Source: Eutreptiella sp. 'Long Island Sound 2002'
Taxonomy: Eukaryota; Euglenozoa; Euglenophyceae; Eutreptiales; Eutreptiaceae
Length of the DNA stretch: 64,000 nucleotides
NCBI GenBank assembly: GCA_964036045.1
Contig: OZ038380.1
Location: forward strand, 125,222,899-125,286,898
Reading direction: 5' to 3'
Positions 14,550-35,104 of the stretch are shown here, piece by piece. Within the stretch, counting starts at the first letter, position 1; every line of letters begins with the position of its first letter. Under the pieces are notes generated by a model that searched no databases, had not been told where the DNA came from, and worked only from the letters and a program-made list of their open reading frames with translations. The position numbers and the translations under genes were made by a program.

Positions 14550-15600
14550 AACAGATACACAATACACAATCCAATCAGCAGAACAGAAAGCATGTGACCT
14601 TCTTGTCAATGCCCCTACTGTAATTGAAAGAGTTATATATTGGCCTGCCAGTGTTCTTTCCTGTATCTCTTCACACGGTCCTATTACAAACACTCTGCAG
14701 TTCATCACTGTAAACAGCATTACGTGTATTGACACTGCCTGTGTCCCTCAACTTGCAACATCTCACACTTGTCACACACTGGGGCTGTCTCACACTGCGG
14801 ACACCAAGACCCACCAGTCATCGGAACCAACAAAGAATACGAGACCGCGGATCAATCTGCAAATCTACTGCTACAACCCGTGCTGATCAAGTGACCAGTT
14901 TCTTATCACTAAATGTCTACATTGTACTCTTGCAGTGGTTTTTCTTTTTGAAAACTACTGTTTGCTGGCAGCAGGGTTCGTTTTTCGCCAGAAACGTAAG
15001 CCATGCTGAGTAATTGTCACGCCCACCAGCATTGCAGAAAACAGCAATACCCTTGGTGTTGATCGGTGGAAGACCTCTGGTCTGCACTTAGTTCAGACCC
15101 AGGTTCGGGCAGTTGTATGGAACTATATAAGATTGCTGGGCCATGCGCACCCACAATAGACTTGCTGTAGCCATATGGGGGCAGGTGGATCACTAAGAGC
15201 CACAAGCAGCCATCCTGAGCGGCACCAGACCTAGATGAGGCCGCATTGGCCCCCCTTATGCTTAGCTCACGCAAACTGTATCCCGTTTTGGAGGGGGCGG
15301 ACACAAAAAATGGCAACGGAAAAAACTATTCTCTTTGGATGTTTACAACACGTACGAATCACACAGCACCAGAAAATTGGTTCTTCACGCAATTTGATGC
15401 TTCTTTAAAGATTTTGTTCACAACAATAAATTATCATCTTGATTTATTTGAAGGGTCGGTATTGCAAGTGTTGTTGTTTTTGGATTTCACAATCCAACAA
15501 GCACCTGCCTTTTCAAAAGCCTAACTTCCAGAAACTTTCATTGTGTGGGACACCAGTTGTACCAAAGTCTGTCCTTCGAAATGAATTGCTTTTTACTGTT
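14550..15600. other. No recognisable gene
   Basis: Non-repetitive spacer inside block G between the Ser-rich frame and the first palindrome. Short frames only. Confidence 0.4.
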
Positions 15601-15603
15601 CCA

Positions 15604-15627
15604 CAGTGCGCGAGGCCTCGCGCACTG
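15604..15627. repeat. Perfect 24-bp palindrome, copy 1
   Basis: Core GCGCGAGGCCTCGCGC with outer bases CAGT and ACTG, so all 12 base pairs match. No loop. It is followed by GAAGGTCGTGAAAAC, a variant of the GRTCACYRAAAC tail seen after other copies. Confidence 0.9.
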
Positions 15628-15763
15628 AAGGTCGTGAAAACAATTGTGTACAGAAGGCAACAAAAACACGACACAAAATCCTCAACATGCAAACACTGAA
15701 AAAAAAGCTCGGCAAAATGTACAAGCCCTTATGGGCATATAAATGCATTCTCCGAGCAGGCGA

Positions 15764-15783
15764 GTGCGCGAGACCCCGCGCAC
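15764..15783. repeat. Imperfect palindrome, copy 2
   Basis: GTGCGCGAGACCCCGCGCAC, a 20-bp variant with two central mismatches, followed by CGATCACTGCAAAAAG (the tail motif). Confidence 0.75.
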
Positions 15784-15826
15784 CGATCACTGCAAAAAGA
15801 GGGGAAAGATCCGGGTTCATGTTGAC

Positions 15827-16443
15827 TTACTTCTTCTTCGGTGCTGCCACCTTGGCCGACCTGGTATTCAGGCTTCTCACCACTGTGCCTCCCCCACTCG
15901 GGGAGGCAGCGGTACCACGGGATGGCTGAGATCCAGAACACGATGGCGATTCGAACTCTGCAGTTGCACTCGCAACATTCTTCGCGTTCTTCCCGGGCTG
16001 GTCCTTACCCGCATCATCCGGAGTTGCATCAAAGTGAGACGCGGGCGCCCCCTTCCGCGTCTACTGGGTCCAGATCCTCCCCTTTACTCCTCCTCGTTGC
16101 CATCCTTATCGTCTGATTTTTCCACTTTGTCCAGGTTCCTGTGCTTGTTCTTTTGCCTGCTTCTTGCTACTTGAGGAGGTTCCCTTTACTGCAGCCGTAC
16201 CCCGAGTCGCTACAAATTGGGCAGTCTTCTTCAGCTTGAGCAGGGTAGGTGCAGCCACTCTTCTTGAGTATCCGGAGTTACAGCTGTCGCTCCCTGCTCA
16301 ACCTGATCGTCTTCCAACATGTACCGCATGATAATGGCATGCTGCAGACCACCTCCAACGGCATTGCTAAGGTCCTTTTGCTCGAGCCCTGACACAGCCA
16401 GAAACCCCACGTTAGTCATCCTCCTTGACCCTGGTTGACTCAT
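15827..16443 (-). pseudogene. Small basic-tailed protein in block G, unknown
   Basis: Reads on the minus strand from an ATG at 16443 (MSQPGSRRMTNVGF...) for 70 residues to a stop at 16231. A second stretch of low-complexity Ala/Ser/Pro/Gly sequence in another frame ends at a TAA at 15827-15829 with the basic tail KVAAPKKK, which looks like a nuclear-localisation signal. Two frame changes (about 16240 and 16110) would be needed to join them. It lies immediately downstream of the candidate transposase gene on the same strand. It may be that gene's C-terminal tail or a separate accessory protein. Confidence 0.3.
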
Positions 16444-16603
16444 GGTGCCATAAAATACCTAAGGAGGGCAGATGGCATGACACGAGACACGTTCATTTGG
16501 GCTCTGAATTCGGTCAAAACGCCATTTCGCCACTGGTCTTCGCAAATCTGTCACATGACAGTATTAGCTGCGACCATTTTCATGTGACTTAGCGACCTAC
16601 TCA

Positions 16604-16623
16604 GTGCGTGAGGTCTCGCGCAA
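16604..16623. repeat. Imperfect palindrome, copy 3
   Basis: GTGCGTGAGGTCTCGCGCAA, a diverged copy of the GCGCGAGGCCTCGCGC palindrome. Confidence 0.6.
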
Positions 16624-16660
16624 TCACACCGCACTACAGACCTGACTCTCGTGTACTTTA

Positions 16661-16680
16661 GTGCGCGACGCCTCCCGCAC
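16661..16680. repeat. Imperfect palindrome, copy 4
   Basis: GTGCGCGACGCCTCCCGCAC, a diverged copy. It lies 57 bp after copy 3 and just downstream of the 3' end of the G gene. Confidence 0.6.
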
Positions 16681-16830
16681 TGCGGGTATCAGCTACCGCA
16701 GCCCTTGGCGCACGTTGCTAGTTGCTGATTCCTGTATGTTCGCATACATATTAGTTATGCTCCCCACAACAGCATCCAGTTTCCGTTTCAGTTGGTATTT
16801 TGCACTGTGTGTCCCCGCGTTACCCCCGGG

Positions 16831-17083
16831 TCACTGGGGGGGGCACCGTTTCAGTTGGTTTGTTGGGTTTTTCTTTTGGTCAATGAGGGCATCCAGCATG
16901 CTGCAACCAGGTAGCGGGTAGTGGTGGTAACCGAGGGGTTGTGTTGGTGAGGGTGGAAGTCTCGCTAACCTCCTCGACCATAAAGTTGCAACCGTGCTGA
17001 CGCAGTCGGGCTCCCATTCCACGTAGGACATGCAAATGCGCCATACTGCCAAAAATCTTGTTATTCGTTGTCCCATCCTGTGT
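16831..17083 (-). pseudogene. G gene, C-terminal part (beyond T)
   Basis: Continues the minus-strand G gene after transposon T. Excising T plus one TGTGT copy joins the codons ...NLVH (31957 upward) to RMGQRITRFLAVWRI in one uninterrupted frame. The frame runs on through YVEWEPDCVSTVATLW to a stop at 16831. The YVEWxPDxV segment fits the C-terminal region of an uncharacterised, multi-copy protein family that I recall from charophyte genomes (YVKWSP-like). Its function is unknown. The join is direct evidence that T inserted into a coding sequence. Confidence 0.65.
17079..17083. repeat. Target-site duplication of T, left copy
   Basis: TGTGT, matched by TGTGT at 31956-31960. Confidence 0.85.
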
Positions 17084-17112
17084 CTTAGGCGGCTCAAGTT
17101 GCATGGTCAAAA
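17084..17112 (+). repeat. Terminal inverted repeat of T, left
   Basis: Starts CTTAGGCGGCTCAAGTTGC. All 29 positions are complementary to the right end. Confidence 0.9.
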
Positions 17113-17430
17113 TGCACCCAAAACTACCTCTGCACGGCACTGCGAAAAAATAGTCCTTTTGGTGGGGACGTAAAACGCAAGAACCAAAAATCCCGTGAAA
17201 AGCAATTAACTGGTTCATTTTCCTTTATTTTCAACAAAACCGACTGCCCGGGAAAATGATTTATTTCCACCAAAATGAACTTCTTTTTTGGGAAAACCAC
17301 AACTTTTTGTTTCCTCTACCATTTATGCTTTGCAATAAAAACACCCGTGAGCTTTCAATCTTTTGGAAAACCAGTTTTGAAAAACCATGTTGCACGCAGC
17401 ACCACAAGAAGCATTTTTTGGTACCACTTC

Positions 17431-17452
17431 TTTGCGCGAGGCCTCGCGCAAA
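17431..17452. repeat. Perfect 22-bp palindrome, copy 5 (in T)
   Basis: Core GCGCGAGGCCTCGCGC extended by TTT on the left and AAA on the right, perfectly paired. Confidence 0.9.
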
Positions 17453-17966
17453 CAAGAACACAACAGCGCAATAAAATGCATCACAGAGAAAAATGTGCCG
17501 CACAGCAACACAGCCAACGCTGTTGCGTTCAGGCTTTTGTCGTTCTTGTCAGCATTTGTGGTAAACTGTTTGTTGTACCAGTTGTCCATCCACAACACAA
17601 CCCACTGTTGGTAAATTTTGTCCCATGTAGTCTGTAACCTGACTGCGGCCTTCTCCTTCAGCGAAGGTGCGCTGTATCGCGCCAGACCTGACCTTGCTAA
17701 AATGCGACGCTGCGCCCTACTTCCCTCTACCGCAACAACTGACTTTGGTTTTCCCTGGTATGGAACTGCGCGGTGGCGCATCAGCAAAAAGAGGCGCCAG
17801 GCCTCCTCTATCAAAACACCAACCCATCTCTTCCCTTCTGCCGCAATCGCCTTTTCAACGCTGCAACCTGTCCGTTCATTTTTGCGCAGACGCATAAAAA
17901 ACAAAGAACAACAATCGCGCGCCCTCGTCCCCCTGTTTGCTGCGGCCACTGTCTTCTCAAGGTCCA

Positions 17967-17970
17967 CCTC
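17967..17970. repeat. Target-site duplication of element B, left copy
   Basis: CCTC here and at 31049-31052. It is four bases; elements C and D have five. Confidence 0.8.
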
Positions 17971-18314
17971 TGAAACCAGACCGGGTGGTCAGGAGCAGAG
18001 GTCGCAGTGGCATGGGCAGCAACATTGCTTGGCACCGAAGACATAACGATAGTGTTGACTGAATAGTATCCTGCAAACAGATATGGTACACATAGCCAAT
18101 GACATACCTGATATGCACATATGAGAAATCCACCCTATCATTCACTAATTGATATAACTACTAAACATCCAAGATTGCCTTATCTATCCCACATCCTATG
18201 TTCCTAACAAGGAAATGGAATATGATATACCCTATCCCACATATATCCCATATATAGGGCCAAATAATGCTCCCTTAGGGGTAAAATGCCAGGGTAGGGT
18301 TGTGACCTGCTTCA
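17971..18314 (-). repeat. Element B 3' LTR
   Basis: 344 bp, plus-strand ends TGAAAC...CTTCA. Nearly identical to 30705-31048. Confidence 0.95.
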
Positions 18315-18325
18315 CCCCCCCACTT
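18315..18325 (-). other. Element B polypurine tract
   Basis: On the minus strand AAGTGGGGGGG lies directly before the 3' LTR's TGAAGC. This is the plus-strand DNA primer site expected at that position. Confidence 0.8.
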
Positions 18326-21300
18326 AAAACGACTGCCACGGGCAGGAAGTACATGCCCAAGAGGAACGTAGCAGTCACAAACAGCAGCAAATCACAGGTT
18401 AGCAGATTTCCTCCCACAGAGTCGAACCTACGCAGACAATCTCGGAGCCGGCCGCACGGCCGCTGCAGTAGCTCCGATCGGTGGGGACAGAACCACCGCC
18501 GATATACAGAAATTGACGAACGGGATCCCGCAGGTCCCGCAATAAGTAGTAGGCGAAATTGCGAGCTGTTGCGCGTAGGATCTGGTCCCTGCGTGTCGCA
18601 TGAGGCATGTGGGGTCCAGCAGGTAAGGGCAGGTAGTTTCCCAAAGAATCAAAACTAAAGGCAAAGTGAAATCACACTTTTAAAAAAAACTGAAGGTAAT
18701 GGTACATGCAAAGCGGTGCGACGCGAAAGTGCAAAAATTTCACTTTTTGAAAAAACTGCCAGGACAATTGACGGGAGTGTCAAACAGCAACGTAGGACTG
18801 TGCCTGCACAAGGGAGCACGAGGGATAAAAGAGATAGAGGCCAGGGAAACATTCACAAGGGACACAACAAAACTTGATGACCTTCGGCCAGGGGACTGTT
18901 ACCACGGGGGGCTAACGGTCCTGTCTCGCAGTGCAACGCGGGGCAACCGTGGTAACAGTCCTTACAACCACCACAGCCCTTTTTTCACACTTTGGAACAG
19001 TGAACACCGTGATCTTGCCATATTGTTGCCTTGCGATGCATCACAGTCTTGTGCCTGCCTCTGTCTTGTGCATGCTTAGGCCCACTAATAAACACGGCCA
19101 CGATGGCCCCACAGTGCGCGCGGTAGCTCACTAAGTAGAGGAAAGAGGTCACGATGGCCTCAGGGTAAATGATCGACGATCATTTAGGCACAAACCAAAA
19201 CACGGGTACGATGCCCACACCTTGCACCCACGTGCTTTAGATCGTTTATGAGGGCTTGATGTGCTTGATGTTCTTGATGTGCTTGCCCGTAACTCTTGTA
19301 GTAATGAGTGAGCTCTTGCTTGTAAGATGTAAACTTGCTTCATTGCTTGCTTGTAAAAGACTGAGACAAGGCCTAGCCAAAGGCCCACTTGTCAAACAGA
19401 CCAGACACCAAAGAAAGATGATCCTGTGGAACGGACCAGGATGAATGAACCAGTCACGGTTGTGACTGTACGATACGGGCACGGCTCAGCGAAGGGTCGT
19501 GTCCGTGTGGATGTCTAACTTAGCATGTGTGTCACACGTGATGCACCACATAGAGGGTAATGAGGAGGTACGGAGATGGGATGAGGGTGTGAGTAGACAC
19601 AATTAAATAGACAAACCTCATAACCATGTAATAATAACCTGACCTCACTGCTAACCCCTCACCTAGGAGCCATACTACGTATATATATCATATATACACA
19701 TAATAGAGGGATGCACACCGACAAACACAAGACACACTTGTGCGCGCAAACCCATTGGGAGGGCCCGGGGGCACACACTCGCCCGGAGGGCATCACAGAG
19801 TGTGGATCTCGCGGTGGCGGCCTTGGGGCACGTGATGGGGGCACTTCAAACATACGGCACGTGGAAGAGCTTCCACAAACTACTCACGTACACACAACAA
19901 ACAGTAAGCATATCCACAATAGAACACGTGTAGAGATACGCCACCTTGTTGCTTTGTGTTCGTGTGTGTCTTGGGGGCGCGCGTATAAACACTTAGGTTA
20001 GCTTGCGTGTTACCTTTGTCGGTTGGTGTGCCACCGGCGGGCCGTAGCGCAGGGGGTCACCTCCAGGTTGCAAATTGGGGAGGTCGCCCGTACGGTCCCG
20101 CTGGTGTATCAGCCCACCCTGCTCCCTGGGGGCACGATGACACGCCCCGAAGGAGTTTTACTCCCCCAACCCCTCTACACCGTGTATGACGGTTCATGTT
20201 TACACCTCCGTGTGTAAACTTGGGCCGGTGTACACGGCTACAAAACCCCAAAGGTAGGTGTCAACCTAGGTCTTGCTTGTTCGGGGGGCGGGTGATAACC
20301 AACGTAATAGGCAACCATATAATCCCGTAACTAAATTAATGGCATGCGCACACACACGCTACCATTGGCCACGGGCACTCCCGGTTTTGGTGTGTCTCGG
20401 ACAGAGAGACTCGTGTGTGTTGTGGAAATCCAAGTCCACGCACGGGTCTCTATAAAGAAAAATGCCACGCCCATATCCCAGCCCGTTTGGTTGGGTGTTG
20501 GGATAGAAGACCCCTCGGGTGTTGTGGAAATCCAAGTCCACTCGTGGGGAACTCTAGAGAAAACATTAATATACATACTCTCTCATAAACATATGCATGT
20601 GCACACTCGCCCTTTTCATCATATTGTTTGTTCCCTCTCGTTGCAGGCAGGAATTCCCCCGCGAAATTCATCAAGGACATGAAGAGCACACCCAGCCAGC
20701 ATGCGGCCCCATGCAATGGCAATGGAGGGTACCCACTCCCAACCCGGGCACGCATAGCGACCAGGGACAAATACCCAGGCGGCAGAGACGGCCCAAATCC
20801 GCAACGCCACTCTTTGCCTTTGAAGACCCCACCCACTCATAGAGTGACGGGGCAAAGGCACCCATTGCAATTCATATTAGAATACTTGTATTGTAGAGGA
20901 CGACCCCTCCCTCTAGGCTTAAGTCCTCGCCGTATGTAGTGGCAATTTTGCACGCCACGAAATTTTTTCCACGTAATTTGAGCCACACGAGTACTTCTTA
21001 CCTTGTATACCTACCCTCGTGTGGACAAGGGCAAATCGGTGGAAAACCATCACGCCCAACACAAAAAGGGAAAATGGGTTGTACCCGCCAACCCAACGAA
21101 GTTTTCAAGCCTTCGCCATTTTGAGCAAATGATTTAGCTCGTTGGCTTGGGTCACGGGTCAGGGACGGTCGTGGGGCTGTGGTTTCGGTACGGGGCGGCA
21201 CTCCGAAACCTTGCAAACACCACCATGCGCACAACCCGGTAGAGTCTTCGGGAAGTGCTCGCCACGTTGTTAGCACCCTTGACGGGGGGCGTCATCGTGG

Positions 21301-21649
21301 GCAGGACGTGTGGCAGTAGTCCTGGTGGTGGTAGGAGTGCTCCAGTAAGACCCAAGGATAGGGGTTTGAATTGCAGTAAGAACCCCGAAAGAACACGTCC
21401 CACTTCCGCCCCAGGCTATATGCCACGCCACCCCACCCGAAGGACTCTCAAGCCTTTAGCGGTGAGAGAGGTAGACGGTGGGGTAAACCTGCGGTACCCA
21501 GCGCCCTGCTCCGCTGGGGATTTTTGTAACCGAGGTGCGCGCAGTGCATGCACATCTTCTTTCCTGTCTCCCACCGCTTCTGGCTCTCTCCTCCCTTCCC
21601 CAAACAATAATATATCCATATTGGTTAGGGTTTTCTTTTCGTGGCACGC
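18326..21649. other. Element B long 3' non-coding region
   Basis: No convincing frame on either strand. It contains a 15-bp perfect inverted repeat (18893-18907 with 18947-18961, 39-base loop), a 7-bp-stem hairpin near 19168-19184, and a 23-bp direct repeat starting GTGTTGTGGAAATCCAAGTC at 20417 and 20519. Segments near 19110 and 20040 look faintly like tRNA A-boxes but do not fold as tRNAs. Length is unusual for a Ty3 3' region, so hidden insertions are possible. Confidence 0.5.
18893..18961. repeat. 15-bp inverted repeat, 39-base loop
   Basis: GGACTGTTACCACGG at 18893-18907 and its exact complement at 18947-18961. It can form a strong hairpin in either strand. It is inside the non-coding 3' part of element B. 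Confidence 0.85.
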
Positions 21650-23380
21650 TCATGAGAGCTGTCCACCAGGGTGGGCAAGGATGTCAACGGTTTGGGTGAG
21701 ATTCTGTTTCTGCAAGTAATCTCTCCAAACTTTGTTGTAGGATGGTAAGAAGGTTTCAACGGGTTCCTCGGTATCCCAATCTTTGGTATAACCCTCCCAC
21801 CGCACCTTGAAGAGAAGTCTCTCGCGGTAAGTACGGTGACTTAATATCTTCTTGACATTATAGGTGTCCTCCTCAAACTGGGAGGGGACTCTAGCAACCT
21901 CCTCCGTGAAATTTAAAGGCACGGGGGAGCGAGGAGAGTTGACCGTTTTCATTAAACAATCAACGTGGACGTCAACTAACCTCCGTTGGTCCACTTGAAT
22001 AACATAGAGGTCGTGCGCCTTCTTGGCCACAACCTCATAGGGCCCATTCCAATAGGGACAAGTCTTATCGCCAAGATTTTTGCGTTGGCGACGGACCCAT
22101 ACGCGGTCCCCTTTTGAGAAATTGGGGGACATCCTCCTACTCTTATTATACTTATGAGCCATTGTCTCTTGCACTTGAATCATAGCCCTCCGTGCAAGAG
22201 CAATAAGCTCCTCACGCCGTTGGAAGTAGTGAGCGGCGTCTTGGGCCACCCCCTTAGGCTCAGCAAGAGCAGGCCCCTTAGTACGGTTGTGTTTACCAAA
22301 CACAATCTCGTTAGGTGTATAAAGTGAAGGACCTGTAGTCTCATGCCACGCTCGTACAACGGCGGGCAAAACCTCTACCCAATTAAAGCCTTTCCTCAAG
22401 GTAAGGGCTTTAGCAACGGCACGCCTTAGCTGCTTGCCAGTATTTTCGGCCTTGCCATTACCTTGGTGCCTACCCGCGAGACACATAGGCGAGCGGGCAC
22501 CAATCTTAGAACAAAGGGTTTGGAAATATTGGCTCACAAACTGTGGCGCACGGTCGGAGCATATTTCACGAGGGGCTCTGAACCTATCCACCCAGCGCTC
22601 CATTACCAGATGGGCCGCTCTTCTCCCCGTTAGCCCTTCATCCTTGTCTTCATGACGGGGTTTAGGAATAGGGATCGCGATGAGGTAGCCGAAAAGCCGG
22701 CATACACACAGGAGCATTCGGTCATACACCTCTCCATCGTGGGAGGTGGAAGGGTAGTGAAACACATCAAGCGCTATGGAGTCCATGGGCTCCATAGGTA
22801 TAGGCATTGGGGTCATGTACCCTTGCTTGCGCTTGGTGTCATGCGTGTGAATGGCACATGAGGGACACGTTTGACATTGCAGTTCCACTGCTTTGTACAA
22901 CCCCTCACCTTCCACGCCATGGTTAATTTCCTTCCAGTGTTTTTCCACACTGGAGGTAGTTAAGTGAAATGCATCATGGTATTCGGCTACCAAATGATGC
23001 ACTAGCGGCGTAGGAACACACCACCGTCCATTACGGACGAGCTTGTTATCCACCAACCTCACTCCATCTTGGAAGCTCCCATTCAAGGCATCTTGCCACA
23101 TTTGTTTGTAGCGTTGACAATTTGGGTAGTGTTTAGCCCAATTGATCTGAAAAACATTGGGAGCATCCTCCCCATGTCTAGGAGTTGCTTTCTTGTGGGA
23201 CTTCCAAGTTTTTCTTATCTTGACAATTCCCTCCAGTCTCCGAAGCTTTCTCTTTTGCTTCGTCCCCCCCCCCCACTGGAGGCGAAGCCAGAGGGGGTGG
23301 ATCACACGCGGGTGCCCCTTGAGCCCGAGGCGCCGCTTTAGACCTAGTAACAACGGGCGCCACAACCGCCCTAAATACAA
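21650..23380 (-). pseudogene. Element B integrase with chromodomain
   Basis: Open frame of about 576 codons; the first about 60 residues are probably out of frame. Zinc-binding N-terminus: H...H in EYHDAFHLTTSS, then CQTCPSC. Catalytic D-D-E: IALDVF, CSDRAPQF and GNGKAENTG. C-terminal region has the GPYEVV/GDRVW elements. The chromodomain (YNVKKILSHRTYRERLLFKV, then RWEGYTKDWDTEEP) should direct insertion toward modified histones. The RNase H frame and this frame overlap at 23178-23380, with a run of Cs at 23264-23275 on the plus strand, a likely place for the frameshift. The enzyme itself looks complete. Confidence 0.85.
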
Positions 23381-25850
23381 GGGGGCGGGCGAGAAGTTCC
23401 TCCTTCTCGGCCGCCATCATGTCCCGCACATCCCCGGCCGCTTGGGCCGTCCCCTGGACCGACACATCACCCAACGCCGGGTTAGCAGGGTAAGCCCAAC
23501 GGGAAAAGAAATCACCCACGGGGTTCACTGGCCCCGGAGTGTAAACCACATGGAGGTCGAATTTAGAGAACAATTCATGCCAACGTGCTTGGCGTGGAGA
23601 GGGACCCCCCACGGTTTTGGGGTCCTCCGTAGCCCAATTTTCAAGGCTACGGTGGTCCGTACGGACCTTCACGCGCTTGTTCCCCACCACACCATGCCAT
23701 TCTAGAAGCGCCGCCACTATGGCGTAGCATTCTTTCTCCCGAGGGCTTCAATTCAATTGGCTGCCTGACAATTTGCGGGGGGAAAAGGCAAGGGGGCGTA
23801 GGGCACCATCGGGACCTTCCTGTTGTAGGGCCGCCCCCACCGCCCAATTACTAGCGTCCGGGGTGAGGACAAAGTCCTTATCCCAATCGGCTAGTTGGAG
23901 GGGAACAATATCCGTAATAGCACGCTTGAGCTTCAAAAAGGCCTCGTTAGCCGAAGCATTCCATGTTAGGCCTATTATTTTGCCATTCTTATGCTTAGGC
24001 AAATCCTTCAACATATTAATCAAAGGGGTAGCTATGGAGGCGTAGTTTTGGACATAGCCTGAATAAGGGTTGGCGAGCCCCAAGAACCCCCGGAGCTCCT
24101 GAACATTATCCGGTTTGTCCCAACGCTCAAGCGCCAACATTTTCCCTGGCGCCGGCCGACGTGTGCCATTTTCCAACACATGGCCACTAAACTCAACAGA
24201 ACGAACAAAGAAATCGGTTTTGCTAACCGAAGCAACCAACTCCTCTTTTCGTAGCCTATCCAACACGGCACGCACGTCGCGGTCGTGGTTAGCCAATAGC
24301 TCCTCCTCCGTCGCACCGGAGGAACCAATAATAATATCATCAATATATACGTCCGCACAATCCAAACCCTGCAAAACATGGTCCATGACCCGTTAAAAAA
24401 TAGCGGGCCCATTGTTGATACCCATAGGCATAACACGCCATTGGTATCGCTTACCCGCCAAAATCATGGCGGTCTTAGCCCGGGATTCAGGGTGATTGGG
24501 AATTTGATGAAACCCTGTACTCAAGTCCACAATAGTGAAAATCTTGTGTTTGGATTGATTTTCCAACATGTTTTCTATGAGGGGGAGGGGGTGTGCGTCG
24601 GGCAAGGTAGCCTCATTAAGTTGGCGGTAGTCCACACCGAGGCGCCATTTTCCCTTCTCTTTCTTGGGCACAACGCAACCGTTGGACGCCCATTCGGAGG
24701 CAGGGCACGGCTCAATCCAGCCACGAGCCAAAAAGTCCTCCACTATTTCTTGCTCCGCCGCGGCACGCTCCCCCACCAACCGTATAGGTTTTACGGACTT
24801 GGGTTTGGCGTTCGAGTATAGGTCAAGTTTAGCAAACCCCAACCGCTCCGTACCACGGACCTTAGGGTGTTCCTGGCCCGGATGGAGACGAACCTCCCCA
24901 CTAAAAACATCCCGTTCATAGTCCGCGAGGATGCGCCTCCTCATGAGCTCCACCTCCGGAGACACAATAGGCTCTTTGGTGGTGACAGCGCCACCCACAC
25001 GAGAAGCCGCCAACAATCGTGTGGCGCCTTTACGTTTTCGGTAACGCTTAACGGTAGTGGCCCTCCCACCCAATAACTCTCGTTCAATTTTTGCAATGCG
25101 TGAACGCACGCATTCTTGTGCCTCCAAATCTTCGGGGGTAGGATCAAGAGTAACGGGTGCGAGGAGTTTTTTATGGGTCGCCTGATACGTGAGGGTGCGC
25201 ACCGAAGCCAAATGGTTTGGCACCCTTTCATCCTCCGACTCTTCCTCCGAGGTCATGCCCGGCTCGCCATCCGTATTGGGGTTAGAGACGGCCGGTGCCA
25301 AAACGGAGGCCACATGACATTTAGTGGCCGCCAAATTTTCCTCCGCAATACCACCGTCCACGTATAGCGCCACCGTGGACCAACCCCGTTGAGGAAGGGG
25401 CGTGAGGTGGTCATTCTGATAGAGACAGGCTTTAGTCTCTGGCCCAGGAAGGTGGTACCCTTGCAAAGTAATTTCCATAAGGGGTTTCCACCAGTCCCAA
25501 TGTGTCCACTTCGGCCCTACGACGATGGCTCGTTGTTTTCTCTTGCCGAATTTTCCGAACACAATCGGAAAACCGATGATAGGGAGGGCACATCCAATAC
25601 AATTTGGAGGGGTTCGCGGGAGTGGAAAAGAAATCTTCAAGCGGCGAAACCCAACGGGTAGCTTGGGCCATACCCGGGACCCTATTGAAGGCGTCCACGT
25701 CGGCGTCTTTGCCAAATTGTTTTTTGACACGTGCGGCCCAATATGGCGTGAGGCCATAGTCAGACTAGGTCCACATGGACCCATCACGCCGCGTAGGTAG
25801 AACATCACGGGCAAGGGCTTCGGGGGCAAATTCAACGAGCTCCAAAGCAC
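23178..25850 (-). pseudogene. Element B reverse transcriptase and RNase H
   Basis: RT motifs in order: WRLGVDYRQLNEATLPDAHP, VDLSTGFHQIP, RVMPMGINNGPAIF, then YIDD (codons at 24336-24347). RNase H motifs: PDASNWAVGAAL, PREKECYAIVAAL, RTDHRSLENW, and NPVGDFFSRWAYP where NTVADALSRWAYP is usual. Two in-frame stops interrupt it: TAA at about 24390 (PAIF stop RVMDH, normally Q) and TGA at 23748-23750 (QLN stop SPREKE, normally W). Both fit single transitions. A frameshift near 25530 precedes it. Confidence 0.9.
25380..25764 (-). pseudogene. Element B Dam/DIRS-like extra domain
   Basis: Read from two frames: VDAFNRVPGM...LYWMCPPYHRF in the protease frame, after a TAG at 25765-25767, then RAIVVGPKWTHWDWWKPLM in the RT frame. 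The shift is near 25530. The order DAF-x-(30-45)-CPPY-x-(25)-VVxPxW-x3-WW matches the domain in elements C and D. It sits between protease and RT. The [NC]PP[YF] motif recalls amino-methyltransferases, and the overall pattern recalls the C-terminal part of DIRS polyproteins. Its function here is unknown. Confidence 0.6.
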
Positions 25851-26625
25851 AAGCCCGGTCCTGTACGGGGGCCACGGAGGAAGCGGTCAAGGCATAGGAT
25901 ATGTGTTTCTCGGCCTCAACACGGTTAGGCAGTTCGCCACCAGGGGGCGTAACCACAATGGACGGGGCAGGGTGCGTAGGAGTGGCCGCCCCAATGACTG
26001 GAACGGTTAGGCCCCACACGGACTGACGTGACACCTTACCATAAATGGGTTTCACCAAAAATGGTTTGCCGGTTCGTGGAGCCTCACGGAAGTCCTCAAT
26101 CCAAAAACGGGGGTGCACTGGATGGTGAGAGTACAAACAATTGAAACGGGCAAAATGGCTCACACAATGTTCGTAACCCCATGGGTGCCCCAAAACCATA
26201 TCCCAAGGTAAATTCGGGACAAGGTACGGGGACACGCCATACTGGGCAACACGAGGAAGTGAAACACTACCATCCACAACCCCCGTAAATTGAATTTTGA
26301 CGTCTATTTGCTCGTCCCCCCCCGGCAAAGGCGTCTCATTATCGGCTTGGAGTGGGCGCCTGCGTTGGGGGGGTTCATATTTTTCAGAGGGTTGGTCTCC
26401 AAAAACATTGGGGTTGGCCAAAGTGACCGCTTGGCACCCAAAATCCACCAAAATACGGAGGGCCTTGCGTTCTCCATTGGGCAAAACAACCTGAACGGAA
26501 AGTTTGGTTTGAATCTCACTAGTCACTATATGCCCCTTCATGACTCTCGATGGAACGAGAGCCACGGTAGTGTCACAGGGGTGCCCGAGGTTTTCTTCTT
26601 CCGAAGGGGGCGCCTCTGGGCACTC
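25765..26625 (-). pseudogene. Element B retropepsin-like protease
   Basis: After the gag TAG (26626-26628) the frame continues ECPEAPPSEEENLG... into a protease. The catalytic motif reads ILVDFGCQAVTL, with Phe where Thr or Ser is standard (D-T/S-G). The later motif is MVLGHPWGYEH. Length and spacing suit a retropepsin. A second TAG ends the frame at 25765. The Phe substitution would remove the hydroxyl that normally braces the active-site loops, so activity is uncertain unless the family has adapted to it. Confidence 0.7.
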
Positions 26626-29600
26626 CTACCAACGTCCGCGCCCGTTGGGCACTCCCTTGCCTCCCTTATCGCCCTTGCTGCCGCCACCCTTATAACCACC
26701 ACCACCCTTATCACCACCGCCGCCCTTATCGCCACCCTTAGGCTTACCACCTTTAGACCTACCCGCAATGTTCCAATGAGTGTCATTGCACGGAGAATTA
26801 GGCTTACACGTCCAAAGGGTGGTATTGGTGGCACCCCAATCAATCCAAGACATGTCCATCTCCGTTTGTTTACGTGTTTTCCAATGTTTGAAACACGGAA
26901 CCCCAAAGGTAGGTGGCGGTTTAGCCCCGGGGTCGACGGGTTTCTTCGCCGGAGGTTTAGACTGACCCACGGCGTTGACGGAGGTGTCAGCGGGTTCGGA
27001 GGTGGGAGGGTCCGCCGTAGCCTCCGCATTAACCGCATTCACCGCGGCTTTATTGTGAGAAGGGCGATGAGTGTACGTCACCATCATCTTGTCTCCTTTA
27101 TTGAGGCGTTCGAGAGCTTCCCTCTCCGATACGCTTTTATGGGCAAGGGCGTAGATTTCCGCAGGCTTCAAACGAGGCCTACGTTGCTCCACTTTCATAG
27201 TGTAGCCGCGTGTGTGAGGTGGCTTGTTGAGTTTCAAGATCCACTTCTGGAGAGCCGGGTCTTTGCAGTCAACTATCACCCCCGGCCCCGAATAGGAAAC
27301 AATCTCAGGAACCGTAGTGCAAGCTTGAGCGCTATATTTCCTGAGTTCTTTTTCGAATGGGGCGCGGCCCGGCGAAGGGTCAAGGCCACTAAAATCCACC
27401 ACATAGCTGTCTGGGCTACTCTTAGCCTCTTGCTTGACAACCTTCTCCTTGATCCACGGGAGCTTGCTTAGGAGCTGTTCCCGGATCACGTGGGCACGAG
27501 TCTCATTGTTCAGAGGCAACAAACGTTGCCAACGAGCATAGAAATCTTCAAGGTCGATGAGGGTCACTTGCCCTTTAACCGACCTGGGGGTGAGGGCTCA
27601 CCACCTTTCATCAGCCCTTGGGGGGTCATACTCGTGGAAACGTTGTTCCAAAAAGTCCCACAACTCTTTGAGGGTGGGGGCCGTGCGTGTGTGGTGGGTG
27701 GCCTCGGCAACCCGGGCGTTGATGATCGCCTTTAGCCATGGGGGCACGGTACTCAAAATCATTTTTGCCTCGTTGGCCTTTCGGTACATGGGATCACACC
27801 CCCCCAACCATTGTTGAAGCTTCTCCACCCACTCGTCGTAGCACTCTAGCTGCCCATTAAATTGCGGTTTAGGCATATCACTATCCTCCACCGCTTTGGT
27901 GTAACTATTTTGCACCATAGGCATTTGGTACGGGTGGTAAGCAGGGGGAGCCATGGTTGGGGGTGCACCTCCATTTGCACTTGGTGCAACCTTCACTGGA
28001 GAGACTGTACACGTATCCGTAGGATGAGAGGGCGTGTACGAAGGTTTCCCAGGGGAAGTGAAAACATTTTTCGTGAGGGGATTAATGTTCCCCAACGAAG
28101 AGGTGTTCTCCTCTTCATTGGCCCACGGGGCCGTAGGCTCTGTGGGGTGTTCTTCGCCCTTAGGCGTCGCCCTCCACTCGGGAACAGCACGTTCCTTCTG
28201 CTTTTCGGCGATTCCCCTCCACGATGTAGGTTCTTGGGGGTGGGGGTGTTCGTGGTGTTCTTCCCCCCCCCTCAGCCACCCCGAATCCGGACAAGCGTTC
28301 GGATGGTAGATGCAATCGTGGGATGGGTGGACGGAGAAAGGAAGGACACACCCACCACCGGATGAACCGGATGGCGCGCCCATGGGCGCCGTAGGCGCCG
28401 CCGGTGTAGGATCAGGAACGGGCGGAGGCGCCGATGGCGGGGGTAGGACCACTGTAACGGGTTCCGCAGGCGTGGGGTACCAGTGGTCCCACGCATCGAT
28501 CCTAGTTGCAACGGCGGCGTAACGTGTAGCGAGTGACTCCACCGCGCTAAAGCACTTAGCCGTGTTGCCGTTGGACATCTTAAGATGATCTGCCACGCTA
28601 GCCTCCACCACCTTAGAATCCCGGCGGTAGCCCTGAACCGCCGCGTCAAATTTAGCCAATGTAGACAAGATTTGGGCCATCCGGTCCCCGTAGGACTGAC
28701 TGATGCCCACGGTAGAGGCTACTGCCTGAGAAAGTTCCTGATGGGATCGCTGCAACTCCAGATTCTGAGTTCGCAGGTCCTTCACCTGTGCCACCAGAGA
28801 TTGGATGCACGTTTCGTAGTGCACCACACACCGGGGACAGCCACAGGTGTGCTGTAGGTCTTCCTCCCCCCGTGTAGGAGTGGGGCCCCCAGAATGCCGA
28901 AAGGATGGACCCCCCCCTCCACGAGGAGGAGATGACCCACCACCGCCCCCCCCAGCAGCCCCCCCTGCCACGGAGGGACCAGAGGGCCCCCCCGCAGGGC
29001 GAGACGGGGGTGCGGGGCGCGCAGCCACAGGTGCTGGCGCCCCCCCACTAGAGGGATGCCCCCCCCCCGAACCCCCACCACTAGATGGCCGAACCAGGTG
29101 CGGGATTCCTTGCACGTGCTCGATGTAAGCCACCTGGCGGTGGCGGGGTGACGGCGGAGGGGGAACATGACCAACAGTATTCGGTCGCGGCGGTGGGGGT
29201 GGGGAATCGTCCACCACAATATACTGTGGTGACTCATGAACCACCATAGGTGATCGAGTTCTCGGATGGGAAGCAAAAACAGGCTCCGATCCCGTTGCAA
29301 CCTCTGGATCTCCCCCCAAATGGGGCAGTTGGGGGTCCTCCGTAGGAGATGTATTTGTGGGGGGAGAGACCAAATTTTTTGGGAGGGTTGCTGAACCTCC
29401 CTCCACCTGATTCCCTCCCCCCCAGCACACATTGTTGAGCTTCGGCATTGCCGGAGAATCATCCACTAGGGATGGACGATCTTTCGTGCCACTCATAGGC
29501 ACTGGAGATGTAGTACCGGCCCGGTCCTCCGTAGGCTCCGGAGATTCCACGACAAGACACTGGCGGTTGTTGACGCCGCTCATAGGCACCGGGGACTCTT

Positions 29601-30704
29601 CCACAGCAATGAACTGAGGGGCCGGAGAGTCCTTCACCGTGATGTAGTGGAGGGCCGGGGATTCTTCCACAAGCATGGGGAGATCCCTGGTCCCTGACAT
29701 AGGTTCAGGAGGTGCAGGCGACGAGGCAACGGAAATAGGGGAATGATGGAGTTCATGACGTTCCAACACTCCAATCTCCTCCTCCTCATCGTCGTTCCAC
29801 TGCTCCACCGCCAGGGGGAACCACTGGTCACACTCATCCTCCTCGATTTGCGTGGGGGATTCCTCGATGATCGTAGGATTTAGCCTGGATCCGCTCGGGG
29901 GATTGGGATACCCTCCCAAGGCTGGAGATTCCTCCACCAGGGAGGGGAACCGCCGCGATCCACTCATTGGAGTGGGCGACGATTCCACCACAGTGGGGTT
30001 CTGCCTAGTCCCCGACAGGGCTTGCTGGATCAGGGCCACGGCCTCTCGAGCCGGACCCAGATGGCCATGGGGACAAGGCGTGAGCGCGAGGACTCGACGG
30101 TTTTCAGCGTCGAGTTGGTCAACAATGGGGCTGATGGGCCCTGCCGCAAACAGGTTTTTTCTCACCTGAGGCTCTGGCAACCCCCTTAGCGACAGAGGAG
30201 TGCCAGAGTCGACCACGATAGGCCCCATTGGCGAAGCCATCGTAGGCCAGTCGGCAGCGCGTGAAGTCGCAGCGTTCGTACGCTCGATCACCCCAGTAGA
30301 TTGGTCGATTACTGCCCCATTCTCGGCGCTAGTAACGGTTCCCGAGCCCATAATAGGCGATTGTGGTCCTCTTATCGCTCCCTGAGGGTGGCCGTCTATT
30401 TCCCCCCCAACCTCCCCAGGTACACCAGCTGGATTTCGAGGATGGGGGGCCCCGATGGGAACATTCGGGGATTTCGGAAACTTAGGATTCGTAGCCACTT
30501 GGGGCTTGGCCCGTTTTTGCGGCCCCTGCCCAGTCGATGGGGTCAGGGCCGAGGAGGTCCTGAGAGTGGGGACCTGGACACCCTCAGCTATCCCCCCCGG
30601 GGAAGAGATTTTAACTTGAATTTTGGTCCACGATGTCTTGGACCGATCGCTTTCCGCGATGCCAAACGCCCAACAGAGACGAAACATTTTCGCCTCTGCT
30701 ACCA
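26626..30704 (-). pseudogene. Element B gag
   Basis: Likely starts at the ATG formed by the last CA of the LTR and the first TGG of the priming site (MVAEAK...), although the frame is open to 30879 within the LTR. The N-terminal half is Pro/Ser-rich with about ten copies of a hydrophobic-acidic-Ser-Pro motif (VEESP, VDDSP, IIEESP; about 29195-30000). A coiled-coil-like part follows (CIQSLVAQVKDLRTQNLELQ), then a capsid-like region (WVEKLQQWLGG, DFYARWQRLLPL). It ends in a Cys/His cluster (CKPNSPCNDTH) and Gly-Lys repeats. A TGA at 27598-27600 interrupts it, and it ends at TAG 26626-26628. Confidence 0.75.
30691..30704 (-). other. Element B primer binding site
   Basis: TGGTAGCAGAGGCG on the minus strand directly follows the 5' LTR. 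The first 12 bases pair with CCUCUGCUACCA, the common 3' end of eukaryotic initiator tRNA-Met. Confidence 0.85.
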
Positions 30705-31048
30705 TGAAACCAGACCGGGTGGTCAGGAGGAGACGTCGCAGTGGCATGGGCAGCAACATTGCTTGGCACCGAAGACATAACGATAGTGTTGACTGAATAG
30801 TATCCTGCAAACAGATATGGTACACATAGCCAATGAAATACCTGATATGCACATATGAGAAATGCACCCTATCATCCACTAACTGATATAACTACTAAAC
30901 ATCCATGATTGCCTTATCTATCCCACATCATATGTTCCTAACAAGGAAATGGAATATGATATACCCTATCCCACATATATCCCATATATAGGGCCAAATA
31001 ATGCTCCCTTAGGGGTAAAATGCCAGGGTAGGGTTGTGACCTGCTTCA
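30705..31048 (-). repeat. Element B 5' LTR
   Basis: 344 bp, near-identical to 17971-18314. Contains TATATATGGGATATATG-type AT-rich sequence that could hold a promoter. Confidence 0.95.
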
Positions 31049-31136
31049 CCTCTTCTCGCAGGGGCATTGTTGCTGTAAAGAATAATTGCGTAACTGTATC
31101 TGCGTACAAATCGCTGTTTGAAAAGCTTTCTTGATT
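31049..31136 (-). pseudogene. T-encoded G-family fragment, 5' end
   Basis: The start of the T reading frame on the far side of element B. The ATG at 31065-31067 begins MPLREEV and continues, after removal of B and one CCTC, into DLEKTVAAAN at 17967. The frame is open back to a TGA near 31137, so the true start could also lie upstream of this ATG. Confidence 0.55.
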
Positions 31137-31451
31137 TCAAACATCAACCTGTCACTCAGTTTTCGCGCGACCAATTATTCTGTGATTCGCTTGTCGCATG
31201 CACCATTTTCGGTTACCTGTAACTGTCTGGTGATCCCACATTTGACTAGTTAATCCTGATTGCGGTACCCAGTTGCGGCGCGCTTCTATCGCTGTTGGGC
31301 AGTGAAGTCAGCGGTGACCACAGCATGAAAACCGGAGATGCCGGCGGGACCTGTATGGGCCCCCATGCAGCAGCGCCGCATCAAGGGAACGTACATACTG
31401 TGTAGTTGGTGGATCTGTCCAATTTTGGTTTTTATGAACGCTTGTGACCTC

Positions 31452-31475
31452 CATTGCGCGAGGCCTCGCGCAATG
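31452..31475. repeat. Perfect 24-bp palindrome, copy 6 (in T)
   Basis: Core GCGCGAGGCCTCGCGC with outer CATT and AATG, all paired, followed by ATCACCGAAAC (tail motif). Confidence 0.9.
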
Positions 31476-31513
31476 ATCACCGAAACTTTAATGTTTTTCA
31501 TGCGCCGTTCCGT

Positions 31514-31529
31514 GCGCGAGGCCTCGCGC
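31514..31529. repeat. 16-bp palindrome core, copy 7 (in T)
   Basis: GCGCGAGGCCTCGCGC exact. The outer bases do not pair here. Confidence 0.85.
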
Positions 31530-31737
31530 TTGAAACTGCAGTTTGTTTTGGAACATTTATACTTTTCAAGATTCTTGGGTACACCATTGTTGCAGTTTAT
31601 TCGTTAATAGATGCATCTCTATCAAGCAATCCTGATAATGGTACTAAGTTACGTGTATAAATACGACAGGATTCCATCTTTCGACAGGCTGCCTAATGCG
31701 TCGTGCTGTAGCACATTAATCTGACACAAATGAACGT

Positions 31738-31761
31738 CTTTGCGCGAGGCCTCGCGCAAAG
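31738..31761. repeat. Perfect 24-bp palindrome, copy 8 (in T)
   Basis: Core GCGCGAGGCCTCGCGC with outer CTTT and AAAG, all paired, followed by AATGGTCACCAAAC (tail motif). It lies about 195 bp from the right end of T. Confidence 0.9.
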
Positions 31762-31926
31762 AATGGTCACCAAACAATACTTTTCCCTGTCTCGCCCATG
31801 GGACATATCATTCTTATAGAAATATTTAATCCGCCATACTTGTTTGCGACGCTTTTATAATATCCAGCAAAACAACTATTTTTCGCTGCCTTTGGAAACC
31901 TGTCATTTTCCTACCTTTTCCTTCGT

Positions 31927-31955
31927 TTTTGACCATGCAACTTGAGCCGCCTAAG
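31927..31955 (-). repeat. Terminal inverted repeat of T, right
   Basis: Exact reverse complement of 17084-17112, followed by the TGTGT duplication at 31956-31960. Confidence 0.9.
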
Positions 31956-33500
31956 TGTGTACCAGGTTCTTGGGAACGTTTTGTACACCCACGCGTCTGC
32001 GACCTGGACCAACTTGTAGTAACAAGTAATGGATTTTCGCCTCCTCAAAAGTAGCAGAACCGGTGTGTTTTGCCTTGTTGCGCACCAGCTTGCTCAACAT
32101 CCCTTCACGAAACTCCTCTGAGTGTGCCTGACCGGGCACATCCTGGTACCACTTGCTGCGGTACAGCAATGTGCACATGATGGTGCATTCATACTTCAGA
32201 ACAGTGTCACACGGTCCGCGTCGCAACCTCCGCAACAGACACAAACTCAACTGCAAGGCCTCCTGGGCCCGCGACCCTGTACCCTTACTTTCTGCTGCCC
32301 AGTTGCACTCTCGTACTAGGTGACCCAGGTACAACAACAGTGGGCACCATTCTGACAATAAACACAACACTGCGTTTGCCACTGCTGCCCTGTTGGCATG
32401 CGCCGTATCAGAACCACTGATTGCAGTTGCAGCCTGTGCGTTGCGACGATACGGGCGTAGTATCCTGGTTGTCGCAAGCATCAGCGCAGCCATAGCTTTT
32501 TCCATAAATATCAGTTTTGGGTATGATAGTATGATTGAACCAGGGCGTAGCATGCCTTTCTGGATAGGTTAGAATAGGCAGAAAATTCTGAAATCTCTGT
32601 GTAACAACAAACTTGTAGGCGTGCCAAACACCGTAAACTACCAGTACGTACCGCAGGTACGCACGCGTGTTCAATCGTTGGATCTTGGCTCCATACAACA
32701 GTTTTAGTATCCCGTAGTGTATGTTTTCGTCAACCAACAGCGGCAAGTTCCTGTTTGTCTGTTGTGCTGAGTCCTTCGCAAACTGCAACAAGTATAAAGG
32801 ACCAACACCCCAGGTTACCTTTTCTTTCGACAGGGCAAACGGGCGCGACACCGGTGCCTGCACAGCTGTTGTATCCCTCCTCACATCGAACGCACATTTC
32901 CAGTATCTGGTACACAACCATCCCCATATCCCATGTCACGCAGAGTCTGGGGTATTCTCCTTTCGCGCTGTTGTAGAGCCGGTGCCACTGTTGTTATGTG
33001 TGCCCCAAGGTTCTCAACGGCTGGGTGTCCTGGCCAGTAGGCTGGTCTCTGCTTTAGCGAAAGTACTGCGATTGCGGTACAGTCTTGCAACCGGTCACTT
33101 TCGTCTGGGTGTGTTGTGTATTGTGCCCGGGACCATTTCTCGATCCACAGCACGCAACGTGATGCAAGCACCAATGTCAACGTTGCTCTAAGTTCTGCTT
33201 CTGCTTGTTCGCCCGCTGTATCTGCGGCGGCGTCTGCTTGCCCAAGTCGTACTTTGGTTCGTCTTTCTGTTTCTGTTAGGTACCTTGTCGTGCTTCCCGC
33301 TTTTTTTCTGTTTCCTACTGCCCGTTGACGCATCAACAGGTACAGGTTCCAGACCTCTTGTCACAAAATGCGCACCCAGCGCTTGTCCTCCTGCCTTTTA
33401 GCTGCGGGTAAACTGTGTCGCGCTCTTTTGTGGAACCTGAGTCGCTGTGCAAATGTTAACACTAGTTGTGCCGCCAGGTCGTTTCATTTCAGTCTGTTCG
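31956..33500 (-). pseudogene. G gene: candidate transposase of an undescribed family
   Basis: Minus-strand gene, about 500 codons here plus about 80 beyond T. Landmarks in order: KRWVRIL, stop TGA (33361-33363), QEVWNLYLLMRQRAV; VLWIEKW; WPGHPAVENL; frameshift near 32920; RPFALSKEKVTWG; LPLLVDENIHYGILKLLYG; YGVWHAYKFVVTQRF; frameshift near 32550; YPKLIFMEKAMAALMLA; CPLLLYLGHLVRECNW; SEEFREGMLSKLVRN. It belongs to an uncharacterised multi-copy family I recall from charophyte genomes. I know no assigned function. Conserved acidic residues (VDEN, SEEF), presence in a TIR transposon and multi-copy nature make a transposase role plausible but unproven. It is interrupted by T near its 3' end. Confidence 0.6.
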
Positions 33501-34090
33501 ACAAGTCATTAGCCGTTTGTTAGGCTGGTTCTGCAGGGCATGCCTCTCTGAATGCAGCAGCTCCGTTGCTTACCTCTGCAATCATTCGATGCGTTACTGA
33601 TTTTCTGGCGCCAACCAGCATTCTGCCTATTTCTGCGTTAAGTTGAATTTGCGCACATATTTGAATTAGCGTTTCGCACAGCGTAATTTAAAAACAGCGT
33701 GTTTGAAAACATCTGGCCTTTTTCTGTCGTCATTACTATTGCGCACGCTGCCGTCGCAATTTGTATTTGGTGTCTGTGTACGCTCCGCTGCCAGTAACCG
33801 AAAGCCGTTTTCCCAAACCACAATCTCCTGTTCCGTTTTCTTCCTTAATCCCAGTTGCAAAAGAAAACCCTATCCTTCCAGCAGCGAAGGCTACGGCCGC
33901 CATGAAAACTGGACACGCCTGCCATTGAGTGGCTGTTGGGAAAAAAGACAATCATTCCCCTGCGCCCCATGACAAATAAGACGAAGGTTACCGACGTATG
34001 ATCGACAATCACAAGGGGTAGCCTTGAAAGGGAATGTAAATGCCGGTATAGCCTGACCTGCTCGCTTTTTCATTTCCTTGTGTGGTTTGA

Positions 34091-34110
34091 GTGTGCGAGG
34101 CCTCGCGCAC
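34091..34110. repeat. Near-perfect palindrome, copy 9
   Basis: GTGTGCGAGGCCTCGCGCAC, one mismatched pair, followed by TGATTGTTTCC. Confidence 0.8.
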
Positions 34111-34272
34111 TGATTGTTTCCGTTCCACAGTATTGTGTAACATTTCATACGTGAGCAAGTCTGTGTCCACACACGGATACACCACAAAAATCAAATATTC
34201 CCGTCAGCATGGTACTGCACCTACAGTCTTACAGGTCATATCCAGCCCGTAAAACATTACATCACGTGATCA

Positions 34273-34296
34273 GAGTGCGCGAGTCCTCGCGCACTC
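34273..34296. repeat. 24-bp palindrome, copy 10
   Basis: Outer GAGT and ACTC pair. The core is GCGCGAGTCCTCGCGC, with a single central mismatch. Confidence 0.85.
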
Positions 34297-34498
34297 CGAA
34301 TTTCTAAATTTGTATTTTCTTTCTACTATAGCGTGCATGTGTTTTACCGAACACGGGAAGTCTACGCGTCATACACTTTCAATGCTGGTTCGTCAATACA
34401 ACCTGAGTTTTAATAACGTGTGAAAGCTGTGTACTTCCACAACCTCCAGTCATTATGGTTTTTATGGTTCCTTGGTGAACTCTACTCGGAATATCTGT

Positions 34499-34520
34499 AG
34501 TGCGTGAGGCCACGCGCACT
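34499..34520. repeat. Diverged palindrome, copy 11
   Basis: AGTGCGTGAGGCCACGCGCA followed by CT. It has two mismatched pairs. Confidence 0.7.
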
Positions 34521-34803
34521 CCGAGCCCTGTAGAATATAAAAAACCTCTCATTTTGGAACAAGGAGGTGCGTGCTGCCTAAAAAACATTTTATTTCACAA
34601 TGCCAAAAACACGTTCATCAGATATCTCAAAAAAAAAATTTGCTGCGCTGTGAACCAGTCCTTTTCCGCGCGTTTCCGCACTTTCAATGCTGATTCGTCA
34701 ATACAACCTGAGTTTTAATAACATGTGAAAGCTGTGTACTTCCACAACCTCCCGTCATTATGGTTTTTATGGTCCCTTGGTAAACTCTACTCGGAATATC
34801 TGT

Positions 34804-34825
34804 AGTGCGCGAGGCCTCGCGCACT
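34804..34825. repeat. Perfect 22-bp palindrome, copy 12
   Basis: Core GCGCGAGGCCTCGCGC with outer AGT and ACT, all paired. Its tandem-duplicate partner (copy 11) has decayed. Confidence 0.9.
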
Positions 34826-35104
34826 CAGAGCCCTGTAAACTAGAAAAAGACCTCTCATTTTGGAACAAGGAGCTGCATGCTGCCTAAAAAACATTTTAGT
34901 CCACAATGCCTAAAACGGGTTCATCAAATATCTCAAAAAATAGTTTTTTTTTTGCTGCGCTGTGAACCAGTCCTTTTCCGCGCGTTTGATGTGCGCAACA
35001 AGGTGGTGTTTGCGTGTGATAAGTTATGCCCATAGTTGGCTTCTCCGAGTATGCATGAACCCTGAGCGAGTTGAGATATTTGAAAAATTGGCTTTAAACG
35101 CCTA

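Follow-up and report, generated by a model that had tools for sequence, protein, structure and literature searches.

The recurrence of a 16-bp palindrome in 12 copies, the best of which differ in their outer bases and yet keep them complementary, raises the question of what holds the two arms together. The copies lie in a stretch of 64,000 nucleotides from the euglenophyte Eutreptiella sp. 'Long Island Sound 2002' (contig OZ038380.1, positions 125,222,899 to 125,286,898 of the forward strand), hereafter the window. A first-pass annotation had proposed that the outer base pairs covary between copies and that the palindrome itself seems to be maintained, perhaps through cruciform-templated repair, as a dimeric binding site or as a minute element of its own. 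We find that the palindromes of the window sit in two nested, decayed DNA transposons. They are probably cis-acting sites of a lineage of cut-and-paste transposons, bound by a symmetric dimer that the element itself probably encodes. The puzzling, self-maintaining palindrome would then become an ordinary kind of thing with an unusual anatomy.

Palindromes in two nested transposons

The search for the core at up to three mismatches identified 12 matches in the window (6 exact, 2 with one mismatch, and 4 with two), which fall at 15608-17449 and 31456-34822. Shuffled windows contain 0.14 matches on average and one at most, so the 12 copies are real, as the annotation had reported. They include six of the seven top-scoring palindromes of the window (score of at least 11), and the core contains four CpGs. 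The labels G and T, to which the annotation had assigned the copies, were left undefined; we read them as the transposase-bearing and the tandem-duplicated stretches.

The outer transposon, of a family that we call A, spans 15261..35023 on the minus strand. It has CTTA...TAAG termini, with 14 of 16 terminal bases matched, and is flanked by the target site duplication TTATG (15256..15260 and 35024..35028). This is the only 5-bp candidate for the boundaries in the scanned range, next to one weaker 4-bp candidate. Minus its nested insertions, the element measures 4886 bp and is internally shortened relative to complete copies of about 6.85 kb. Its transposase gene lies in two parts on the minus strand: the N-terminal and middle part (31961..33585) is broken by stops and frame changes and matches the 665-residue transposase of a complete copy, L149, at 77-79%, and the C-terminal part (16693..17083) continues in frame across the inner insertion. 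A second, broken open reading frame (ORF) of this copy (15827..16443, minus strand) is the counterpart of a 339-residue ORF of L149, to which its pieces are 51-78% identical.

The inner transposon, of family B, occupies 17084..31955 on the minus strand. It has perfect 29-bp terminal inverted repeats and the target site duplication TGTGT (17079..17083 and 31956..31960). When the inner element and one TGTGT are removed, the minus strand of the empty site reads NVPKNLVH-RMGQRITRF in frame, where an intact relative (P0122) has NVPKNLVH-SMRQRLTRF. The in-frame empty site and the flanking TGTGT therefore identify the inner element as an insertion in a gene, namely the family A transposase gene, of which it carries a shortened relative. 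A fragment of this family B transposase is found in an ORF at 17323..17967 (minus strand), whose tail crosses the palindrome at 17434. The inner transposon is itself interrupted by a Ty3/gypsy-type long terminal repeat (LTR) retroelement (17971..31048, minus strand), without which it would measure about 1.79 kb. The LTRs of the retroelement (17971-18314 and 30705-31048) are about 98% identical, its target site duplication is CCTC, and it separates the two clusters of palindromes.

Eight of the palindromes belong to the family A element and four to the family B element. The site types given here were defined by flanking sequence (see below), and a slash separates the outer bases of the two arms. 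On the left side of family A they lie at 15604..15627 (type 6, CAGT/ACTG, 347 bp from the left end), 15763..15784 (type 7, AGT/ACC, two core changes), 16603..16624 (type 9, AGT/AAT, two core changes, between the transposase and the next ORF), and 16660..16681 (type 10, AGT/ACT, two core changes, about 15 bp past the transposase stop codon). On the right side they lie at 34090..34111 (type 11, AGT/ACT, one core change), 34273..34296 (type 12, GAGT/ACTC, one core change), 34499..34520 (type 13, AGT/ACT, two core changes), and 34804..34825 (type 13, AGT/ACT, 201 bp from the right end). The last two are tandem duplicates (34502/34807), doubled by a duplication of about 305 bp (34374-34987) close to the right end of the family A element. 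The family B palindromes lie at 17431..17452 (type 0, TTT/AAA, 350 bp from the left end), 31452..31475 (type 3, CATT/AATG), 31511..31532 (type 4, CGT/TTG, with positions 1-2 unpaired), and 31738..31761 (type 5, CTTT/AAAG, 198 bp from the right end).

A site array shared by two families

In the genome, of 2.28 Gb and 2205 contigs, the exact core is present 11,014 times and the reversed control not at all; the TTT/AAA form of the palindrome occurs 1,205 times. We studied a sample of 137 sites, consisting of the 12 in the window and others from 29 stretches, which together cover about 191 kb of a single contig (C1). Fifteen stretches surround the first 50 listed places of the core, which were picked by the exact core and not by outer bases, and they hold 2 to 10 sites each. 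The remaining 14, of 3 kb each, surround TTT/AAA sites, which favours TTT/AAA at the retrieving site; the sites retrieved in this way belong to types 0 and 5, in which copies from the unbiased set are present too. Sites with more than three core mismatches go unseen, so heavily decayed copies are left out, and a compensated core pair would be detectable. We sorted the 137 sites by their flanks into 27 homologous site types (13 of family A, 14 of family B).

The complete family A copies (L135, L138, and L149) measure 6820-6856 bp, with perfect 20-bp terminal inverted repeats (CTTAGCCCACGCAAACTGCA) and the target site duplications AAGTT, TAAGT, and TCAAC; the ends of a fourth copy, L141, were looked for and not found. 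Copies of family B (L136, L144, and L164) measure 1709-1906 bp and have ends of the type seen in the window, with the duplications TCAAA, ACTTA, and AATTT. Duplications of 5 bp are hence present at eight insertions: two in the window, three of the four family A copies tried, and three family B copies with both ends visible.

A complete family A copy has four ORFs, which in L149 encode the 665-residue transposase and products of 304, 291, and 339 residues; its palindromes number up to 10 and occupy fixed places. Ten sites are present in each of L138, L141, and L149, and nine in L135. Two lie near the left end, three border the smaller ORFs, two stand just past the transposase, and three are upstream of it, so that in L149 each of the four ORFs is bordered by sites. 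The family B copies of 1.7-1.9 kb have no intact genes and retain four or five sites. The distances from the element ends, measured in the window, are 347 bp in family A and 350 bp in family B on one side, and 201 and 198 bp on the other. Downstream of the transposase stop, the distances in L149 and in the family B copy L140 are 30 and 32, 86 and 87, 1065 and 1068, and 2220 and 2205 bp; the counterpart of the 339-residue ORF was not seen in L140. The DNA between the sites can be aligned between families only by score near the ends, with identity at the level of shuffled sequences. The site array is thus fixed in two transposon families that can otherwise barely be aligned at the DNA level, and the keeping of a 16-bp core at matching places across such divergence marks it as functional, as judged from the sequences.

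These places bear on two other explanations. The presence of many near-identical copies amid diverged surroundings could suggest a miniature mobile element, inserted repeatedly, which is close to the annotation's idea of a tiny element in its own right. We regard this as extremely improbable. The copies occupy homologous places within and between families, inside larger transposons, and none of the 12 window palindromes is flanked by a direct duplication of at least 5 bp. An 18-mer search of the genome_contigs set met at least 118 stretches (80 titles among the matches listed, all bacteria) and one virus contig, and none of these 119 prokaryote or virus loci among the matches listed has a second core. 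The second explanation starts from the sites that lie 30 bp past the transposase stop in both families, and also after other ORFs: they could form RNA hairpins in element transcripts, e.g., 3'-end signals with a stem and a GGCC loop. This is very unlikely, because in L149 the transposase start is preceded by three sites at distances of 467-878 bp and only 2 of the 10 core changes in the window leave a G-U pair in the sense (minus) strand. Furthermore, GGCC, a free loop in such a hairpin, is kept in 8 of the 12 window copies and in 23 of the 27 site types.

Pairing of the outer bases within and between families

At outer position 1, 11 of the 12 window copies have T/A. The arms are paired in 10/12 copies at position 2, 11/12 at position 3, 4/12 at position 4, and in 15/48 cases at positions 5-8; the values for position 4 and for positions 5-8 equal those of shuffles. 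The outer bases quoted by the annotation are present, and the fourth pair of its list hence arises from picking the best copies. Positions 2 and 3 together are paired in 21 of 24 cases, a value that 0.03% of shuffles attain when all 12 copies are treated together and 8% attain when the arms are dealt within each element. Two of the quoted sites, 31456 (ATT/AAT) and 31742 (TTT/AAA), are not one site changed on both sides: they represent two site types that resemble each other in most copies.

The sample separates the contribution of each family. Family A types have AGT on one arm in 13/13 cases and ACT on the other in 11/13, with ACA in the remaining two. Position 2 is thus paired in 13/13 types and position 3 in 11/13, both as in shuffles. 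In family B, position 2 is A or T on both arms and forms a pair in 9/14 types (shuffle mean 7.9, reached in 46%); position 3 does so in 5/14 (shuffle mean 4.2, reached in 41%). When both families are pooled, position 2 is paired in 22/27 types against 10.3 in shuffles. The pooled covariation is the difference between families, nothing more: the two arms are matched by family and otherwise independent as far as the sample shows. Pooling lets a family difference in site preference pass for base-pair covariation. The tabulation of outer bases that the annotation had proposed, when run on this sample, hence gives independent variation within each family, the outcome that it had itself set against its claim, and covariation as a general rule is absent within family A and not significant within family B.

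Two smaller sets of data concern the same positions. Palindromes read back from protein fragments are pairable at position 2 in P0137, P0172, and P0220 (second match) and not in P0204, P0205, and P0228. This reading, for which codons were decoded by hand, left out P0211 and P0279 (coding context), other one-mismatch peptides, and the first match of P0220 and P0252 (position 2 undecidable); it is superseded by the genome sample. In the chance 18-mer loci with flanks (118 of 119), the arms are complementary at position 2 in 26, at position 3 in 53, and at position 4 in 37.

The way in which sites change provides additional information on whether pairing is maintained. We compared 118 copies of the 16 site types that have three or more copies, each with its own type. 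The 40 changes in the core and the 9 that hit paired bases at outer positions 1-3 all lack compensation, as do the 10 core substitutions of the window. In 4 of the 27 site types, moreover, the centre is fixed as GCCC or GGGC instead of GGCC and is not palindromic. Given these fixed mismatches and uncompensated changes, it is the arms GCGCGAG and CTCGCGC that matter, and not the pairing of every base.

Maintenance of the palindromes as structures, i.e., as cruciforms in which one arm templates the other, is highly improbable in the light of these results and of the lack of covariation within families. It would account for the long perfect arms of some copies, such as the 32-bp palindrome at 7959 of L149 (7951-7982, eight outer pairs), a site whose other copies have three to four outer pairs. 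It would also account for four of the five distinct both-sided changes at outer positions 4-8, which stayed paired relative to the commonest letters of the site type (15604-15627, 34273-34296, 34499-34520, and L149:3871), when about 1.7 are expected by chance; three of the four are in the window's own, more diverged copy. This excess is unexplained. At unpaired positions 4-8, however, 10 of the 29 distinct one-sided changes made a pair, which is the third expected by chance.

A proposed dimer-bound site and its relation to known systems

Among the three mechanisms offered by the annotation, the dimeric binding site is the one that fits the sequences; cruciform repair and an independent tiny element are not supported. 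A symmetric dimer would bind two half-sites, TGCGCGAG and CTCGCGCA, placed 2 bp apart, and would also prefer certain bases at the next one or two outer positions, with a preference that differs by family (G/C versus A/T). Since the dimer would be symmetric, a shift in its preference would alter both arms of every site in a family and so mimic covariation, and old copies would then decay by single-base changes. The binder would most likely be encoded by the element, either as the transposase or as the product of one of the three other ORFs, and it may serve in end recognition, gene control, or both. With its 11,014 sites, this one genome lends itself to the study of how a DNA-binding protein and its sites co-evolve.

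The sites could instead belong to a host protein (a silencer, an insulator, or a CpG-binding factor) or be purely regulatory, controlling the genes of the element and not its transposition. The four CpGs of the core and the sites bordering all four L149 genes agree with this, which we nevertheless consider unlikely: a host factor common to both families could hardly favour G/C at position 2 of one and A/T at position 2 of the other within a single genome, the end-proximal sites hold their distance to the ends, and the short family B copies keep their sites without intact genes.

The transposases of the two families are 45% identical and have conserved acidic residues (D149, D288, and E494/E497). 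A fold search with the predicted structure (mean pLDDT, the model's per-residue confidence, of 64) returned RNase H fold enzymes with a helical insertion in the first 13 rows, the best matches being the P element and Hermes. The RNase H fold and acidic triad of the model, along with the terminal inverted repeats and the fixed 5-bp duplication, suggest a DDE/D cut-and-paste transposon of the P/hAT/Transib-RAG fold group, with putative catalysis. The transposase matches no Pfam family. Matches to the THAP, hAT, BED, and KDZ families of Pfam were absent from 4 proteins (E up to 10) and from 27 (E up to 1), as were those to THAP, hAT, and BED from 5 ORFs of L149.

Several points weigh against element-encoded dimer sites. 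A role as promoters, insulators, or terminators would suit the sites at gene borders just as well as one in transposition, and the binder could be a host protein. Two sites, one at 1438 bp in family A and one at 631 bp in family B, are without a partner in the other family, and the paired both-sided changes at positions 4-8 are not accounted for. The Foldseek E-values of the fold matches are weak (0.049 and 0.14), and Pfam, NCBIfam, and PHROGs name no DNA-binding domain in the scanned ORFs.

The setting of the window is eukaryotic, with Ty3/gypsy elements that have reverse transcriptase, RNase H, integrase, and chromodomain. For one of these elements, relatives at 95-98% represent thousands of sequences. 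Three similar LTR-like blocks at 38974-60826 suggest two adjacent or nested Ty3/gypsy elements, and an ORF at 53527-57021 has a sub-threshold match resembling Dam methylase. A broken reading of a reverse transcriptase of the long interspersed nuclear element type (KTPGVDGLPAELYRTLPLNL) lies at 35050-36900, near the right end of the outer transposon, and a satellite-like array with a period of about 186 bp lies at 6378-7716.

We tentatively suggest, as a possibility well short of an even chance, that these elements represent a superfamily of eukaryotic DNA transposons not described before, with four genes, CTTA ends, a 5-bp target site duplication, and a transposase like those of P, hAT, and Transib. 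An array of the palindromes, 16 bp long and placed at the two ends and at every gene border, would organise their whole body and would be read by a putative element-encoded dimer, possibly ParB-like on parS-like sites, whose outer-base preference would separate families in one genome. ParB binds 16-bp palindromic parS sites in arrays, and their likeness to the palindromes studied here is by eye only. The same holds for a stretch of the 304-residue ORF (L149:4158-5072), LYVLNGQHGTETCRKI (CVSGQHSVEAIAKI in family B), which resembles ParB/DGQHR domains by eye; this ORF has no match in Pfam, NCBIfam, or PHROGs and no ParB among its matches to PDB sequences.

Transib elements have a 5-bp target site duplication, which is matched here, and CAC termini, where ours are CTTA. 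The Kyakuja-Dileera-Zisupton (KDZ) group differs by the 8-bp duplication given for Zisupton in an excerpted source, and no Pfam match to KDZ was found. The termini and the duplication speak against membership in Transib and in KDZ, respectively. En/Spm (CACTA) elements duplicate 3 bp, against 5 bp here, and the fold match of the transposase points to another group. P elements (Drosophila P and THAP9) duplicate 8 bp, against 5 bp here, which speaks against membership in their superfamily. They have a THAP domain, for which the proteins studied here gave no Pfam match. Their subterminal inverted repeats are a parallel to the palindromes in the part of the literature drawn upon (PMC7776569), but measure 11-12 bp, against arrays of 16-bp palindromes around several ORFs here. 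The hAT elements (Hermes and hAT5) have hAT and BED domains, unmatched here in Pfam, and duplicate 8 bp, or 5 bp for hAT5 according to the literature excerpt used, as do ours. The repeats of Hermes are quasi-palindromic in the portion of the source cited (PMC10368747), which makes them a parallel to our sites, but they are short and near the tip, whereas the nearest palindrome here is about 200 bp inside. The repeats of En/Spm are not described as perfect palindromes in the excerpt that we cite, unlike the sites studied here. That same excerpt describes a second element protein, TNPA, which binds multiple subterminal repeats with motifs that differ between families (PMC2613891).

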